The notes under the pieces: generated by a model
The model's input: the letters and a program-made list of their open reading frames with translations, nothing else
Databases searched by the model: none
Told to the model about the DNA's origin: nothing
Origin: a virus
IMG/VR virus record: IMGVR_UViG_3300022725_000007
Location: 1-24,572 of that record
Direction: 5' to 3' (one strand)
DNA length: 24,572 bases
In this document: piece after piece, positions 3,334-13,153 of the stretch
How positions within the stretch are numbered: position 1 is the stretch's first letter
How the letters are laid out: each line of letters begins with the position of its first letter
Program-made: the position numbers and the translations under genes

Positions 3334-5171
3334 CGAAGCCGCACTACCGCATGACCGCATCGGGCGATATTATGCCCGCGATCCGTGCGGCGGACGGGTT
3401 TCAGAACCTTGTCGCGAACATGGGCACGTCGCGCGACAAGGCGGCGGCCAACGGCTACATTGTCGCGCCGCTTTCCGACCTGGACTTGCTCAACGCTTAC
3501 CGCGGATCATCCGTGGCAAAGGCGGTTGTCGATTATCCTGCCGACGACGCCTGCCGGGAGTGGCGGGAGTGGCAAGGGGATGCACGGCAGATCACCGCGC
3601 TTGAGGCTGAGGAAAAGCGCCTCGGCGTGCAAGCCAAGGTTCGCGATGCGCGCATCCGGTCGCGGCTTTACGGCGGGTCGGCTATTTTCATCGGCACCGG
3701 CGACGCCGACACCACCAAGCCGCTTGCGCCGGAGCGCATCCGCAGGGGCGGCGTCAAATACCTGACCGTGCTGGACCGGCAGGAACTTGGCGTTGAGCGG
3801 CTGCAAATGGACCCGTCCCTGCCCGGCTACGGCAAGCCGGAAATGTACCGCCTGACGGGCGGGTCCGGGCGGATCGTGGATATTCACCCGTCGCGCCTGA
3901 TCGTGTTCACGGGCGATGATGTGCCGCACAACAGCACGGCCCAATCGCTGCACGGCTGGGGCGACAGTGTGCTTCAGACGGCCCTGGAAAAGGTCGGTCA
4001 CCTCGACGGCACGATGGCCAATGTCGCAAGTCTGGTGTTCGAGGCGAAGGTCGACGTAATCAAGGTAAAGGACTTCACGCAAAACCTGCGGGACGGCGGG
4101 AGCGCGTATGAGACGCTGATGCTGAAGCGGTTCGGGCTGGCGGCCACGGCTAAGGGCATCAACGGCGCGCTGCTTCTGGATGGTGAGGAAGACTATCAAC
4201 AGAAGTCGGCCAGCTTCGCCACCCTGCCGGACGTGATGGACCGTTTTATGCAGATGGTCAGCGCGGCCAGCGGCATCCCCATGACACGGCTGTTCGGCAT
4301 GTCGCCGGCGGGCATGAATGCGACCGGCGATAGCGACATGCGGAACTACTATGATCGTGTGAAGCAGGAACAGACGCTCGACATCGAGCCGGCCATGCAG
4401 GTGTTTGATGAGTGCCTGATCCGCTCGGCGCTCGGGTCGCGGCCCGAGGAGCTGCATTTCAACTGGCGGTCGCTCTGGCAGATGAGCGAAAAGGATCAGG
4501 CCGATGTCGCGATCAAGCTGGTTCAGGCCGCCGAGGGGATGGAGCGCATGGGCGCGGCCTCGATGGATGCGGCGGGTCGCGCCCTGGTCAATGCCCTGAC
4601 CGAGATAGGCGTGTTTCCGGGGCTGGAATCGGCTATCGAGGAATATGGCGAAGGTGAGCCGATCGAACGAGAAGAGGTGGACCCGTTGACCGGTGATCCG
4701 GTTAAGGCGTCAGACGCCTCGCCGCGCACGCTCTATGTGCGTCGGGATGTGGTGAACGCCGAGGATATCATCGAGTGGGCAAAAGGACAGGGTTTCAAGA
4801 CCACGCTGCCGGCTGATGACATGCACGTCACCATCGCGTTTTCCCGTGAGCCTGTGGACTGGATAAAGGTGGGCGAGGCTTGGGATGCCGAGGTCAAGGT
4901 GGCCAAGGGCGGTCCGCGCATGATGGAGCGGTTTGGCGAGGCTCGTGTTCTACTGTTCGCCTCATCGCAGTTGTCATGGCGACATGAGGAAATCAAGGGT
5001 GTCGGGGCGTCGTGGGATCATCCGGAGTATCAGCCTCACATTACGATCTCCTATGACCCGGGCGCACCGGACCTGAGCGAGATAGAGCCGTACGCCGGCG
5101 AAATCATCCTCGGGCCGGAAATCTTCGAGGAAATCAACCCGAAGTGGGCAGAAGGGATCAAGGAAAAATGA
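3330..5171 (+). CDS. Portal protein (DUF1073/Acb1-like) with C-terminal 2H phosphoesterase domain
   Basis: The protein has 613 residues from ATG 3330, with GGAAAGG about 5 nt upstream and an ATGA overlap with terL. Residues about 1-440 look like a DUF1073-type portal: DGFQNLVANMGTSRDK, then VVDYPADDACREW, then IPMTRLFGMSPAGMNATGDSD, and HFNWRSLW. After an acidic linker (about 440-470), residues 473-613 contain two H-x-T motifs: H499 (HVTIAFS) and H570 (HITISYD), 71 residues apart. That is the 2H phosphoesterase signature also used by the anti-CBASS nuclease Acb1 of T4, which cleaves cyclic nucleotide messengers. The portal forms the dodecameric DNA gate. The extra domain may give immune evasion, but activity is inferred from motifs alone. 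Confidence 0.88.
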   Translation: MTKPHYRMTASGDIMPAIRAADGFQNLVANMGTSRDKAAANGYIVAPLSDLDLLNAYRGSSVAKAVVDYPADDACREWREWQGDARQITALEAEEKRLGVQAKVRDARIRSRLYGGSAIFIGTGDADTTKPLAPERIRRGGVKYLTVLDRQELGVERLQMDPSLPGYGKPEMYRLTGGSGRIVDIHPSRLIVFTGDDVPHNSTAQSLHGWGDSVLQTALEKVGHLDGTMANVASLVFEAKVDVIKVKDFTQNLRDGGSAYETLMLKRFGLAATAKGINGALLLDGEEDYQQKSASFATLPDVMDRFMQMVSAASGIPMTRLFGMSPAGMNATGDSDMRNYYDRVKQEQTLDIEPAMQVFDECLIRSALGSRPEELHFNWRSLWQMSEKDQADVAIKLVQAAEGMERMGAASMDAAGRALVNALTEIGVFPGLESAIEEYGEGEPIEREEVDPLTGDPVKASDASPRTLYVRRDVVNAEDIIEWAKGQGFKTTLPADDMHVTIAFSREPVDWIKVGEAWDAEVKVAKGGPRMMERFGEARVLLFASSQLSWRHEEIKGVGASWDHPEYQPHITISYDPGAPDLSEIEPYAGEIILGPEIFEEINPKWAEGIKEK

Positions 5172-8857: not shown

Positions 8858-9234
8858 GCGGCGCGGAGATTGCCGATGAGGTTGCCGCCGCTATCGCTGA
8901 GGCTGGTGCGGAGACGGGCGCGGGCGTGCCGCTCGCAGGCATTATCGTGCGCGTGTCTGGCGCGGATGAGGGGGTATATCCGCCGACGCCGGGGGTAGAA
9001 ACGGAATACGATTGCACGCTGATCTTGAGCAAGTACAGCGCGCGGGATCGCGATGGAACGAATATCACCGACCGCGACCTGAGGGCGATGATCGGCCCGG
9101 ACGCCGAGACGGAGCCGGAAAACGGCGATAAGTTGCGGGTCGGGGGCCTGACCTACAGCGTGATCAACATCACGCCGTACAAGCCGGGCGGGGTGGTTCT
9201 GTATTACATCGCTCAAGTGAAGGCTGGCGAGTAA
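8854..9234 (+). CDS. Head closure / neck protein candidate
   Basis: The protein has 126 residues from ATG 8854. It begins MSGAEIADEVAAAIAEAG and has a beta-rich middle (LAGIIVRVSGADEGVYPP) and an end with LRVGGLTYSVINITPYKPGGVVLYY. The final 'g..y.v..v.p..p.g....y...v' pattern is typical of head-closure proteins (SPP1 gp16-like), which plug the connector after packaging and carry the tail. It lies in the expected place after the connector. The next gene's ATG shares the final A of its TAA stop. The family is not certain. Confidence 0.65.
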   Translation: MSGAEIADEVAAAIAEAGAETGAGVPLAGIIVRVSGADEGVYPPTPGVETEYDCTLILSKYSARDRDGTNITDRDLRAMIGPDAETEPENGDKLRVGGLTYSVINITPYKPGGVVLYYIAQVKAGE

Positions 9235-10259
9235 TGGCCCGCGACACCCGCGCCGCCTTTTTGCGCGAGTTGGCCAGGCATGAGCCGGCTCTTGTGCGCG
9301 CCTTCGAAGAAGCCGTGCGGAGTGCCCGCGACGCCGTGGTGCTGCGCATTCTGGAAGAAGCCATCCGGCGCGGCGATATCGAGTTCGCGGTGCAGATGCT
9401 GGCCCGGCGGGATTACTTCAAGGCCCCGCTTGATCAGTCGATAATCGAGATTTTCAACGCCGGGGGGGTCTACCAGGCGAACCTTGCCCCAAAGCGGAGA
9501 GAAAATACCGCGCCCCGGCTGGCGGCGCGGTTCGACATCCTCAACGAAACGGGGATCGAGACGGCGCGGCGTCTGGCTGGCGATCTGATTACGGAAATCA
9601 CCGAAGATCAGGCAGCGATGATCCGGCAGACAATAACCGAGGGACTGAGCGAAAACAGGGGCTATGCCCGGATTGCCCGCGATCTGGTCGGCAAGACGGT
9701 CGGCGATCGGCGCGTCGGCGGAATGATCGGGCTGCACAGCCGTCAGGCAGAGGCAGTCAGGCGGGCGCGGGCAGAGCTTGAGGCGGGGGAATACGCCAAG
9801 TACCTGAGCCGATCCGGCAACATCCGAAACCAGAGCCTGGACAGGGCCGTCGAGAGGGCCATACGCACCGGCAAGCCGATGACACAGGCCGAAATCGACA
9901 GGTCCATCCGGGCCTATTCAGACGGCCTGCTGAAGCAACGGGCGCGAGTGATCGCGAGAACCGAGGGCAATGCGGCAATGAACCTTGGCCGCCGTGAATC
10001 GATCCGCCAGCAAATCGAGAATGGCGTCATTCGCGCCGATCTTGTCACCAAGACATGGGTTGCGACCCTTGGGAAATTCACCCGCGATCACCACAAGGAG
10101 CTGAACGGCACCAATCTGAAATGGGGCGAGAAATTCATTTCGCCCAAGACCGGTTTTGCGATGGACGGGCCGCATGATCCCGACGCGCCGCCCGTCGATA
10201 CGGTGAACTGCCGGTGCTTCGCGCGGATCGAGGCAGACTATCTGGCGATGGCGGAATGA
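9234..10259 (+). CDS. MuF-type minor head protein
   Basis: The protein has 341 residues from ATG 9234 (TAATG overlap). The first 140 residues are helical and charged. The second half has the Mu protein F-like domain: 'RARVIARTEGNAAMNLGRRE', then KTWVATLGKFTRDHHKELNGT, GEKFISPKTGFAMDGPHDPDAPP and the terminal NCRC motif (VDTVNCRCFARIEADY). The D/H-x-x-L-N-G block and the closing NCRC are diagnostic of this family. MuF proteins are minor head components that enter with the DNA or help portal assembly. In many phages the gene lies directly after the portal, so its place after the connector genes is a small rearrangement. Confidence 0.9.
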   Translation: MARDTRAAFLRELARHEPALVRAFEEAVRSARDAVVLRILEEAIRRGDIEFAVQMLARRDYFKAPLDQSIIEIFNAGGVYQANLAPKRRENTAPRLAARFDILNETGIETARRLAGDLITEITEDQAAMIRQTITEGLSENRGYARIARDLVGKTVGDRRVGGMIGLHSRQAEAVRRARAELEAGEYAKYLSRSGNIRNQSLDRAVERAIRTGKPMTQAEIDRSIRAYSDGLLKQRARVIARTEGNAAMNLGRRESIRQQIENGVIRADLVTKTWVATLGKFTRDHHKELNGTNLKWGEKFISPKTGFAMDGPHDPDAPPVDTVNCRCFARIEADYLAMAE

Positions 10260-10684
10260 CAAAATCCTTCTCTGCAAGCGTCAAGAATTGGTCCGACAAG
10301 GCCATTCGCAACGCCGACCTGATCGTCAGGCAATCCATTCAGGATGTTGGCCGGGAAATGACGCAGCCCAAGGACGGGTTGATGCGCGGCGCGCCCTTCG
10401 AGGAAGGTGTGGTGCCGGTTGATGAGGGCGAGTTGATCAACAGCTCGTTCGTTGACGTGGCGGGGGTGCAGAAGGTCAGGGGCGGCGGTGAGCAGCCGCC
10501 CGACTTCACGGCCGCGCTGGCGGGCTTCAAGGCCGGGGATTTCACGGTGATTGGTTTCACGGCGCCCCACGCCCGGCCAGTCGAGTACGGGCAAGGAGGC
10601 GTGCCGGGCAGGTTTTTCGTGAGGAACGCGGTCCAGCAATGGAACGGCATCGTGCAGCGAAACGCGGCCCGGCTGAAGGACTGA
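10256..10684 (+). CDS. HK97-gp10-like tail completion / neck protein
   Basis: The protein has 142 residues from ATG 10256 (ATGA overlap). It begins MTKSFSASVKNWSDKAIR and contains a helix, then DEGELINSSFVDVAG, VIGFTAPHARPVEYGQGG and a C-terminal FVRNAVQQWNGIV. The order 'L..S....' then 'Yg...a.y.E.G....G..F...a' fits the HK97 gp10 family, which lies between neck and tail terminator. It would help attach the tail to the filled head. The usual next gene, the tail terminator, appears only 2.1 kb further on, because the accessory cassette separates them. Confidence 0.75.
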   Translation: MTKSFSASVKNWSDKAIRNADLIVRQSIQDVGREMTQPKDGLMRGAPFEEGVVPVDEGELINSSFVDVAGVQKVRGGGEQPPDFTAALAGFKAGDFTVIGFTAPHARPVEYGQGGVPGRFFVRNAVQQWNGIVQRNAARLKD

Positions 10685-10717
10685 CCGAAGAAAAGTGTAG
10701 TTGACAGGGAAATATAG

Positions 10718-10746
10718 TTGACCCGGCACATACGGTGCGCTAGAAA
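10718..10746 (+). promoter_or_regulatory. Cassette promoter candidate (sigma70-like)
   Basis: TTGACC (10718-10723), a 17-nt spacer and TAGAAA (10741-10746) form a good sigma70-like promoter with 5/6 and 4/6 consensus matches. An 8-nt direct repeat TAGTTGAC at 10698-10705 and 10715-10722, offset by 17 bp, overlaps its -35 element and could be an operator pair. A promoter in the middle of a late operon is unexpected and supports an independently expressed cassette. Confidence 0.5.
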
Positions 10747-10821
10747 TTCAGGTGCCGAGAAGGCGACCCCCGAAACCGCGTCAACGGTTGATCGGGGGCC
10801 TGAACCGAAACCTGAATAGCG
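10738..10821 (+). ncRNA. Foldable leader: nested hairpins before the cassette genes
   Basis: Complementary arms are nested. CCCCCG (10767-10772) pairs with CGGGGG (10793-10798), and AACCG (10774-10778) pairs with CGGTT (10785-10789), around a CGTCAA loop. GCC (10754-10756) can pair with GGC (10762-10764). ATTCAGGT (10746-10753) pairs with ACCTGAAT (10810-10817), and CGCT (10738-10741) with AGCG (10818-10821). Together these give a three-way-junction-like fold. The outer arm overlaps the promoter -10, so the full fold would exist only in read-through RNA or DNA. The inner hairpin would be in the cassette transcript. Confidence 0.45.
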
Positions 10822-10923
10822 CAGGCCGCGGTCTGAAAGGAGCATATGCACGGTTACGGGTTGCCATGCAATCCGGTCGTTGCGCTCACAGACTTGAACT
10901 TGCGCCGCGTGGAGAAAATCACG

Positions 10924-11679
10924 ATGGCGATGAAGAAAGCAGAAAGCACCATTGAAATTCCCCCCATTCATCGGGGCGAAATCATCATCAGGATCATCGG
11001 GCAGACACCGATGTTCATGAACCGGATGGCCGCGAAGGCCAAGCAACAGCTTCTGGTAGGGGGCCGAAAGAAAACGACGGCGGACAAGGCCAAAATCAAG
11101 CATGACCCGCTGGCGGAGTATCGAGACAGCATGGAGCGATACCCCGGCGATGGCCCAACTCGTTTGGCAATGCGTGTCGTGGCGCTCAAGGCGGCAATGT
11201 GCACGGCGGCGCTGGAGACGGCGGGCATCACCAAGACAAGCGCGCAGCGTCTTCTGTTCATGCCGGGCGATCTTGTCCCGCTCTACGGCACGCCGCAACT
11301 TCGCATGGACGTGGTTCGCAGCGCGGACATCAACCGCACGCCGGATGTCAGAACGCGGGCATTCTTGCCGAGGTGGGGCGCTGAGGTCAGGGTGCAGCAC
11401 ATTCTGCCGCAGCTGCCGACTTCCAGCGTTTTGACGCTCGCCGCCAATGCCGGCATTCTCGTTGGCATCGGGGACTTTCGGCAGGAAAAGGGCAAGGGCG
11501 CGTTCGGCAGTTTCCGGGTTCTTGGCGAAGGTCAGCAAGATGACGAATGGGATGATCTGATCGAGAACCACGGCGCGACGGCGCAGGCCAAGGCAATCGA
11601 CGATCCCGAGTTTGCCGACGACGATACAGCCGAGTTGATGGAGTACTTTGGCGAAGAATTCGCGCGGAGGGCTGGTTGA
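10924..11679 (+). CDS. Cassette protein A, unrecognised; RAMP/Cas7-like features
   Basis: I chose ATG 10924 (251 residues) because GGAG lies 9 nt upstream. An in-frame ATG at 10846 has AAGGAG only 3 nt away and would add 26 unconvincing residues. I do not recognise a named family. Near the start is a predicted strand, GEIIIRIIGQTPMFMNRM, like the first strand of RAMP proteins ('i.G.tPl.m'). A lysine-rich loop follows (KAKQQLLVGGRKKTTADKAK). Towards the end AAGILVGIGDFRQEKGKGAFG looks like a glycine-rich RNA-binding loop before a strand (SFRVL). The C-terminus is acidic. These features suggest an RNA or nucleic-acid-binding protein, but it is a weak by-eye match. The gene shares one base with the next and is followed by the GGCNN array. 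Confidence 0.72.
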   Translation: MAMKKAESTIEIPPIHRGEIIIRIIGQTPMFMNRMAAKAKQQLLVGGRKKTTADKAKIKHDPLAEYRDSMERYPGDGPTRLAMRVVALKAAMCTAALETAGITKTSAQRLLFMPGDLVPLYGTPQLRMDVVRSADINRTPDVRTRAFLPRWGAEVRVQHILPQLPTSSVLTLAANAGILVGIGDFRQEKGKGAFGSFRVLGEGQQDDEWDDLIENHGATAQAKAIDDPEFADDDTAELMEYFGEEFARRAG

Positions 11680-12167
11680 TGGCACGTTTCACGAAGGCTC
11701 TGCGCCAGCGGATACTGGATGACTTCACGCGCCAGAACAACGGATGGTTCGATCCGCGCGCATTCGTGCTGCATGTGCGAGACACTGGCCCGGACCATCC
11801 GGCCTACGGCTGGTTCGAATGGGATGACGCCAAGGCGGCGGAGGAGCATCGTGTCTGGCAGGCCCGGACGTTTGCTCAGGGATTGCGTATCGAGTTCAAG
11901 GTGGAGACTGTCGAGCGCGGCTCGTTTACGGTGTCGGCACCTCAATTCGTGTCGCCCCTTGATGCGCGCGCGAGCGGCGGCGGCTACTTTCAGACCGACC
12001 CGACAGACGCGGAGCATATGGCGGAGTTTGCGAAGCAGGCCGCGCAGCATCTTCGCTGGTGGCTTCGCCGGTATGGGGCGGTTGTGGTTGCCGCCGGCGG
12101 CGATCTGGGGGCGCTGACCGATCTCGCTGAGGCGCTTGAGGGACCGAAGGGGGAAGCGGCGGCCTGA
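11679..12167 (+). CDS. Cassette protein B, unrecognised
   Basis: The protein has 162 residues from ATG 11679, whose A is the last base of protein A's TGA stop; GGAGG lies 8 nt upstream. This tight coupling implies co-expression. The N-terminal third is FDPRAFVLHVRDTGPDHPAY followed by GWFEWDDAKAAEEHRVWQAR, an aromatic-rich block. The middle is beta-rich with FTVSAPQFVSPLDA, and the C-terminal part is helical (HMAEFAKQAAQHLRWWLRRY). I cannot assign a family. There are no membrane segments, no signal peptide and no clear catalytic motif. The stop codon is followed one base later by the first unit of the GGCNN array, so the array is effectively the gene's 3' untranslated region. Confidence 0.72.
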   Translation: MARFTKALRQRILDDFTRQNNGWFDPRAFVLHVRDTGPDHPAYGWFEWDDAKAAEEHRVWQARTFAQGLRIEFKVETVERGSFTVSAPQFVSPLDARASGGGYFQTDPTDAEHMAEFAKQAAQHLRWWLRRYGAVVVAAGGDLGALTDLAEALEGPKGEAAA

Positions 12168-12700
12168 CACGGCAGGCGGGGCTTGGCCCGGCCCGGCCGG
12201 GCGTGGCGAGGCGAGGCAAGGCGCGGCAGGCATGGCCTGGCGAGGCTCGGCACGGCAAGGCATGGCAGGCGGGGCTCGGCGTGGCAAGGCAGGCGGGGCG
12301 CGGCAGGCATGGCGGGGCTGGGCAAGGCGCGGCCAGGCTGGGCGCGGCAAGGCAAGGCAGGCGGGGCAAGGCACGGCAGGCATGGCCTGGCGAGGCAGGC
12401 GGGGCGCGGCAAGGCGTGGTTCGGCTTGGCTAGGCCAAGCAGGCGGGGCGCGGCTGGGCACGGCAGGCGGGGCAAGGCACGGCTAGGCCAGGCATGGCAC
12501 GGCTAGGCAGGCAAGACAAGGCACGGCGTGGCGGGGCAAGGCAAGGCAGGCAAGGCTTGGCTTGGCTGGGCCGGGCTCGGCGGGGCAAGGCAGTCGCGGC
12601 CTGGCGCGGCCCGGCATGGCAAGGCAGGGCTTGGCGTGGCAAGGTAAGGCAAGGCAGGCAAGGCAGGGCTAGGCATGGCGCGGCTAGGTAAGGCAAGGCC
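12168..12700 (+). repeat. GGCNN pentamer array of about 105 units
   Basis: The 533 bp are built almost wholly from units GGC plus two variable bases. Nearly all 16 dinucleotides occur as the variable part (AA, AC, AT, GG, GC, GT, GA, CT, CC, TT, TC, TG, TA and others). A 4-base unit, GGCA, recurs and often comes just before GGCGG or GGCAT. Rare exceptions include GGTTC, GGTAA, GACAA and one 9-base unit near 12590. A 21-base identical segment starts at 12225 and again at 12375, exactly 150 bp apart. The constant GGC with free variable bases is unlike a simple slipped microsatellite and implies selection on the triplet and its spacing. It lies between the cassette genes and the terminator, so it would be transcribed. 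Confidence 0.95.
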
Positions 12701-12719
12701 GAAACGGTTAAATTGAAAG

Positions 12720-12747
12720 AAGGCGGCACCTTTTGGTGCCGCCTTTT
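12720..12747 (+). terminator. Strong intrinsic terminator ending the cassette
   Basis: AAGGCGGCACC (12720-12730) and GGTGCCGCCTT (12735-12745) form an 11-bp perfect stem with a TTTT loop; T residues follow (12744-12747). On the opposite strand TTCTTTC follows the hairpin, so it may act in both directions. It stops cassette transcription just before the tail terminator gene. Confidence 0.85.
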
Positions 12748-12760
12748 CATGAGGTGGCTT

Positions 12761-13153
12761 GTGTCGATAACAGACGGTCAAGCAGCATTGATCCGCAGGA
12801 TCGTCACGATGGACGATCCGCCGAATATCGCCCTGCCAAACGGGCCGGGTGTCGGCCTGCCGCGCTATGTGGTGCAGGAGGCGGGCGGATCGCAGCGCAC
12901 ATTCGACATGGCCGGGACGGTGGAGAGTTTCCCGGAAATCGTCGTGCGCGTCGAAACCGAAGATGGCGAGTACGCCACCGAAAACAACACGCTTGTCAAG
13001 GCGCTGGTGGCCCGGTTCAAGCCCGGCGCCCGCTTTGATGGCATCACCATACTGGACGCGGCCGACCCGAGGCCGCCGATCACGGGCGGGGGCATCTATG
13101 CCGTGCCGGTGATCATTCGCGGGCGCTACGTGTTCAACAGCGCGATTACCTGA
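12761..13153 (+). CDS. Tail terminator protein
   Basis: I chose GTG 12761 (130 residues) because GAGGTG lies about 4 nt upstream. An in-frame ATG at 12749 sits at the end of the terminator tract with no ribosome binding site. The sequence runs VSITDGQAALIRRIVTMDDP, then LPRYVVQEAGGSQR, EIVVRVETEDGEYATENNTL, FKPGARFDGITILDA and VPVIIRGRYVF. This matches the small alpha/beta tail terminators (lambda gpU / DUF4128 type), with 'R......v.G...g...V..P..y....' near the C-terminus. It caps the tail tube and joins it to the neck. Its place after the gp10-like gene, separated by the cassette, fits normal phage order. Confidence 0.72.
   Translation: MSITDGQAALIRRIVTMDDPPNIALPNGPGVGLPRYVVQEAGGSQRTFDMAGTVESFPEIVVRVETEDGEYATENNTLVKALVARFKPGARFDGITILDAADPRPPITGGGIYAVPVIIRGRYVFNSAIT

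Follow-up and report, generated by a model that had tools for sequence, protein, structure and literature searches.

What occupies positions 10,685 to 12,748 of a virus genome, between the head and the tail genes of its late operon, with two coupled genes and a long short-period repeat? The window considered here is the whole stretch of 24,572 nucleotides (IMG/VR virus record IMGVR_UViG_3300022725_000007, positions 1 to 24,572). An earlier note on this DNA had described the segment as an autonomous, moron-like insertion with an array but no obvious toxin, immunity or surface gene. The analysis indicates, with a probability of about 0.9, that the cassette is a locus of the Viral Interference Programmable Repeat (VIPR) kind, a new member of a recently reported class, present as an accessory insertion and carrying a tetramer-punctuated array. 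VIPR was the one matching system found in a literature search.

VIPR was reported in 2026 in a preprint from the Doudna laboratory (PMC13142463). As described there, the system comprises a RAMP-type protein, Vipr, an accessory gene (vap) and vrRNAs in which GGY and NN alternate. A minimal locus needs just vipr and a vap gene, and most such loci are found in phages. The vrRNAs are 9–16 repeats long and recognise double-stranded DNA with one base skipped between NN pairs; for Escherichia phage SUSP1, Vipr was shown to bind vrRNA, and DNA under this 1-nt-skip code. The targets assigned in the preprint are rival elements, and phages are thought to use the system against rival phages. Seven types are distinguished, SUSP1 and P. 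fulva representing type II, and staggered arrays with overlapping vrRNAs appear in fig. S18. VIPR has also been proposed as an ancestor of the CRISPR RAMP proteins.

Organization of the Cassette

The segment contains, in order, a leader, gene 1, gene 2, the array and a hairpin terminator (Table 1). To its left the late operon encodes a DUF2213 head protease, a cement protein, the major capsid protein and the minor head and neck proteins; to its right follow the tail terminator, the major tail protein and the tape measure. The tail terminator gene starts at 12749 (ATG) or 12761 (TTG), gene 1 has an in-frame alternative start at 10846, and the ATG of gene 2 overlaps the stop codon of gene 1 as TGATG. 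The insert is genuine and a function can be assigned to it, and the leader, coupled genes, array and terminator listed in the earlier note all lie between the neck and tail terminator genes. That note had also held that tight ATGA packing is broken only here, which is incorrect, as intergenic gaps of ~60–120 nt are present elsewhere in the window; the two noncoding stretches of the cassette are by far the longest.

Table 1. Features of the VIPR cassette and its flanking genes (window coordinates).
Feature	Position	Strand	Evidence or remark
Minor head / head morphogenesis gene (Mu F-like), left flank	9234..10259	+	Pfam PF04233, PHROG 3517
Neck / tail completion gene, left flank	10256..10684	+	PHROG 169, E 4e-14
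Leader, 239 nt	10685..10923	+	Structured RNA ~10733-10828; fold z -3.6
vipr (gene 1), 251 aa	10924..11679	+	PHROG 4652, PDB 36pp, hhalign with SUSP1 Vipr, predicted fold
vap (gene 2, accessory protein), 162 aa	11679..12167	+	Homologue in 68/81 vipr loci; PHROG 15946
vrRNA array, GGY-NN pentamers and 14 GGCA tetramers	12171..12699	+	Steps of 5 and 4 bases only
GGCA tetramer starts, first 7 of 14	12171, 12225, 12264, 12288, 12302, 12356, 12375	+	Example span 12225..12228
GGCA tetramer starts, last 7 of 14	12394, 12438, 12462, 12506, 12545, 12589, 12653	+	
Hairpin terminator, 11-bp stem, possibly bidirectional	12720..12745	.	Fold z -5.1
Tail terminator gene, right flank	12749..13153	+	Weak PHROG 179 and Pfam PF13554 matches

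The claim that the unit is autonomous is only half supported. The hairpin is convincing as a terminator, but no promoter passes a sigma-70 consensus scan, and the promoter-like TTGACC-N17-TAGAAA candidate near 10717-10745 is weak. The structured part of the leader folds as a long hairpin, and none of the fetched loci contains a sequence related to it. Rfam gave no match anywhere in the window.

A separate, pseudoknotted RNA is conserved directly 5' of vipr in many alphaproteobacterial VIPR loci and is absent from the window (L012:4885-5003, L017:4885-5003, L016:4885-5003, L099:5885-6003, L062:4875-5003, L073:4874-5003 and others). In its outer stem the GGAG ribosome-binding site is base-paired. 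Both-side changes occur in 12 of its 24 pairs, 95.8% of cells are paired (34–42% when the alignment is slid), and strong matches to its covariance model (E < 1e-4) fall solely 5' of vipr. Among seven relatives, Rfam returned a tRNA and nothing for this RNA.

The Vipr Protein and Its Accessory Partner

Gene 1 and all 35 of its aligned relatives match PHROG 4652 and no other PHROG, the family that SUSP1 Vipr matches end to end (E 1.4e-96), SUSP1 Vipr being taken as the larger of the two small genes flanked by vrRNAs in the SUSP1 genome. Searched against PDB sequences, the gene 1 profile found a single match, 36pp, 'SUSP1 Vipr protein' (E 1e-4), and hhalign aligned the profile with SUSP1 Vipr along the region of the glycine-rich loop (probability 95.9%, E 6e-9). 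The AlphaFold model of the protein (pLDDT 89) was submitted to two structure searches, in which CRISPR Cas7-type RAMPs made up the matches listed throughout (Foldseek E down to 5e-5; Z up to 9.7), and a Cas7/Csm3-type RAMP fold is accordingly predicted. From these sequence and model comparisons, gene 1 is a Vipr protein, a putative guide-RNA-binding RAMP. The earlier note was right that neither protein looks structural, but its remark that no immunity gene is apparent is overturned by the identity of gene 1, for which the array would be the putative guide RNA.

Gene 2 encodes a conserved accessory protein, to judge from its homologues in 68 of the 81 compared vipr loci, which comprise viral contigs and prophages; PHROG 15946, which it matches, is a family of unknown function. 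It bears no sequence relationship to SUSP1 Vap1 by hhalign (probability 0.6%). Its structure model is confident (pLDDT 93) and gave no PDB match, though a weaker fold relation may exist. Neither protein matched Pfam or PADLOC.

The GGY-NN Array and Its Punctuation

The array is a gap-free, single register of GGY-NN pentamers interrupted solely by the 14 GGCA tetramers. It advances in 96 steps of five bases and 14 of four, with no other step size; 107 of its 111 anchors are GGC or GGT, and all 16 types of NN letter occur. Its register (chain) score is 177; none of 200 dinucleotide-shuffled versions of the array exceeded 15.4, and elsewhere in the window the score reaches 8.2. The segments between tetramers measure 10, 7, 4, 2, 10, 3, 3, 8, 4, 8, 7, 8, 12 and 8 pentamers, and the 5' edge holds an additional two-pentamer fragment. 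Only 3 of the 15 segments thus contain nine or more repeats and several have 2–4; some short segments have the same letters as the beginning of longer ones (AT CT GA; GG AA AC). The array may therefore be partly degenerate, or its guides may span tetramers.

The same punctuation recurs in relatives. Arrays parsed beside most of the related genes comprise 4745 pentamer steps, 501 tetramer steps and ~18 others, with tetramers usually spaced by 7–12 pentamers (the mode of the family). Junctions of the form GGC(A/G/T)-G(G/T)C at the tetramers occur in the relatives as well and are mostly GGCGGTC or GGCAGGC. Gain and loss of units could be compared in five mycobacteriophages whose loci are nearly identical. 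The presence or absence of two complete tetramer-bounded units sets L086 apart from L143, and that of one such unit sets L145 apart from L147. Because units come and go exactly at tetramers in these phages, the tetramers are read as natural guide boundaries, and on this comparative evidence the GGCA tetramers look like delimiters of individual guides. Between near-identical unit pairs, changes per site amount to 0.057 at NN and 0.039–0.048 at GGY, a small excess from too few cases.

Very large VIPR arrays, of up to ~500 repeats, were seen in some relatives (L062:6440-8894, L057:3483-4898 and L020:3955-5361).

Comparison with Known Systems

The closest described counterpart is the VIPR system of SUSP1. 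A GGY detector run blind on the SUSP1 genome placed one vrRNA before and three after a pair of small genes, in agreement with the description in PMC13142463. Both loci are phage-encoded two-gene units with a RAMP-type Vipr of PHROG 4652, an adjoining small vap gene and a GGY-NN repeat RNA. They differ in that SUSP1 has four separate, GGT-rich vrRNAs, each with a structured tail, whereas the window has one continuous, GGCA-punctuated array whose guides abut without tails between them, and an accessory protein unrelated by sequence to Vap1. Type II features, namely discrete vrRNAs with an invariant 3' tail and a vap1 homologue, were sought in the window and neither was found. The architecture of the array may be the one that the preprint calls 'staggered' (fig. 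S18).

The main text of PMC13142463 does not mention the tetramer punctuation. It is conceivable, though the odds are somewhat against it, that the locus belongs to a VIPR branch with tail-less tiled guides delimited solely by a one-base-short repeat (GGCA/GGCG), in which a slip in the filament register would mark the guide ends and units would be exchangeable as cassettes. If so, register slip would constitute an array grammar absent from that main text. The punctuation also suggests a way in which guides could be separated from one another and swapped although no CRISPR-type repeat is present.

Class 1 CRISPR-Cas effectors (Cas7/Csm3) share the RAMP fold with a glycine-rich loop, but the cassette holds no CRISPR repeats, spacers or cas genes, and its guide letters would be NN pairs spread between GGY triplets. 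A CRISPR array was accordingly rejected, as the steps are of 5 and 4 bases only and form no repeat-spacer pattern, and membership of a known defence family was set aside in view of the lack of a PADLOC match. Prophage morons resemble the cassette as accessory units between late genes, variably present and with their own terminator; they differ in content, which here would be an RNA-guided interference system.

Proposed Mechanism and Search for Targets

By analogy with the published system, the array would be transcribed into vrRNAs with a GGY scaffold and hypervariable NN letters, and the GGCA tetramers would delimit the individual guides. Vipr subunits would coat the vrRNA much as Cas7 does crRNA, each probably covering one pentamer. 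A rival phage, satellite or prophage would be recognised when the NN letters pair with its double-stranded DNA, with one target base skipped between pairs, and the bound complex would block transcription of the target, an effect that the accessory protein probably strengthens. For this locus, RNA expression, DNA binding, the 1-nt-skip rule and the silencing of rivals are all inferred from PMC13142463. The targeting step in particular rests on that source because no natural target above chance was obtained at the window locus.

Searches with the one-base-skip pattern over IMG/VR, the host genera and the fetched loci gave no natural target above chance. A local all-against-all comparison of the window and ~100 loci showed no excess for skips of 0, 1 or 2, and local matches at skip 3 were rejected because they came from arrays left unmasked in sister loci. 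Of four window guides searched against IMG/VR, three yielded chance-like matches with no extension. Segment 2 matched 19 of 20 letters in a single phage family, within a gene for a 975-aa tail or tape-measure-like peptidase and with the skipped base falling at codon position 3 (the wobble position). Its letters in reversed order gave three matches at 16-letter stringency, as many as the real order. For this reason segment 2 is not claimed to have a target, and the match is suggestive at most. Guides from Bradyrhizobium, Microvirga and Aureimonas prophages, compared with their own genera or family, gave nothing or only chance-level two-mismatch matches, and the matches of a mycobacteriophage guide fell in unrelated low-GC phages.

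Alternative Explanations

Four observations weigh against the VIPR reading: no target exceeded chance, few segments reach the repeat number reported for vrRNAs, no 3' tail structure lies between the guides, and the excess of changes at NN over GGY is small. The lack of a target for the guides, the segment lengths of 2–12 pentamers and the short segments that repeat the starts of longer ones would also suit a decayed VIPR locus, in which vipr and vap persist while slippage and deletion have scrambled the array and left no working guides. This is unlikely: the register is perfect across 110 steps with nearly all anchors intact, both genes are open and conserved, and the decayed array of L091 looks quite different, its register being broken. 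Still more improbable is a self-regulatory or packaging-related role, in which the RAMP and its repeat RNA would form a complex on the phage's own DNA or RNA and time late expression. The position within the late operon is in keeping with such a role, as is the pseudoknotted leader of some relatives, which would mask the vipr ribosome-binding site; yet the window and ~100 loci, used as a database, hold no excess of 1-nt-skip matches, the insertion position varies, many related phages lack the cassette, and PMC13142463 assigns rival elements as targets.

Slippage can expand GC-rich short repeats, and the array could in principle be a low-complexity expansion 3' of two unrelated genes with no RNA-guided function. 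This explanation is hardly credible given the gap between the observed register score and that of the shuffles, the recurrence of the same architecture in dozens of phages whose NN letters have diverged, and the RAMP homologue encoded next to the repeat. An interference locus of the VIPR kind is the preferred reading.

Insertion Site and Distribution of Relatives

The accessory nature of the insertion, as proposed in the earlier note, is borne out by related phages. An IMG/VR search found no relatives of the minor head protein, and empty sites were therefore drawn from isolate phages. Paracoccus phage Pkon1, Sinorhizobium phage phiLM21, Synechococcus phage Yong-M2-251 and Rhizobium phage RHph_TM3_3_3 share the minor-head/neck order and have no VIPR between the neck gene and the tail-terminator position, the latter identified by annotation and gene order. 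A Sulfitobacter plasmid-prophage (L087) likewise runs from neck to tail-terminator position without VIPR, which it carries after the tail tube instead, and in Pararhodobacter (L099) the minor head and neck genes have VIPR between them. Because related phages lack it or carry it elsewhere, VIPR is regarded as an accessory cassette in a variable head-tail slot. In Pkon1 a toxin-antitoxin pair (L157:8033-8638) occupies the slot between minor head and neck that VIPR holds in L099, which suggests that this slot is an insertion hot spot.

Relatives of gene 1 were found in at least 80 viral contigs, in prophages of Bradyrhizobium, Methylobacterium, Microvirga, Aureimonas, Pararhodobacter and others, and on plasmids (one Sulfitobacter plasmid-prophage and one Paracoccus plasmid), with more distant relatives in Gordonia, Mycobacterium and Pseudomonas phages. 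The locus and its ~100 relatives extend VIPR to alphaproteobacterial phages, phage-plasmids, and Gordonia and Mycobacterium phages, in all of which the genes carry hypothetical annotations. The mycobacteriophage carriers infect M. smegmatis mc2 155 and offer a genetically tractable model. The VIPR loci of Gordonia and F1 Mycobacterium phages (L085, L086 and L143-L147) lie near antirepressor and excisionase genes, and their VIPR genes are annotated as hypothetical proteins only. The LESphi2 prophage of Pseudomonas aeruginosa LESB58 encodes a distant homologue of Vipr, preceded by two GGY-NN stretches (L084:3564-3868 and 3971-4555).
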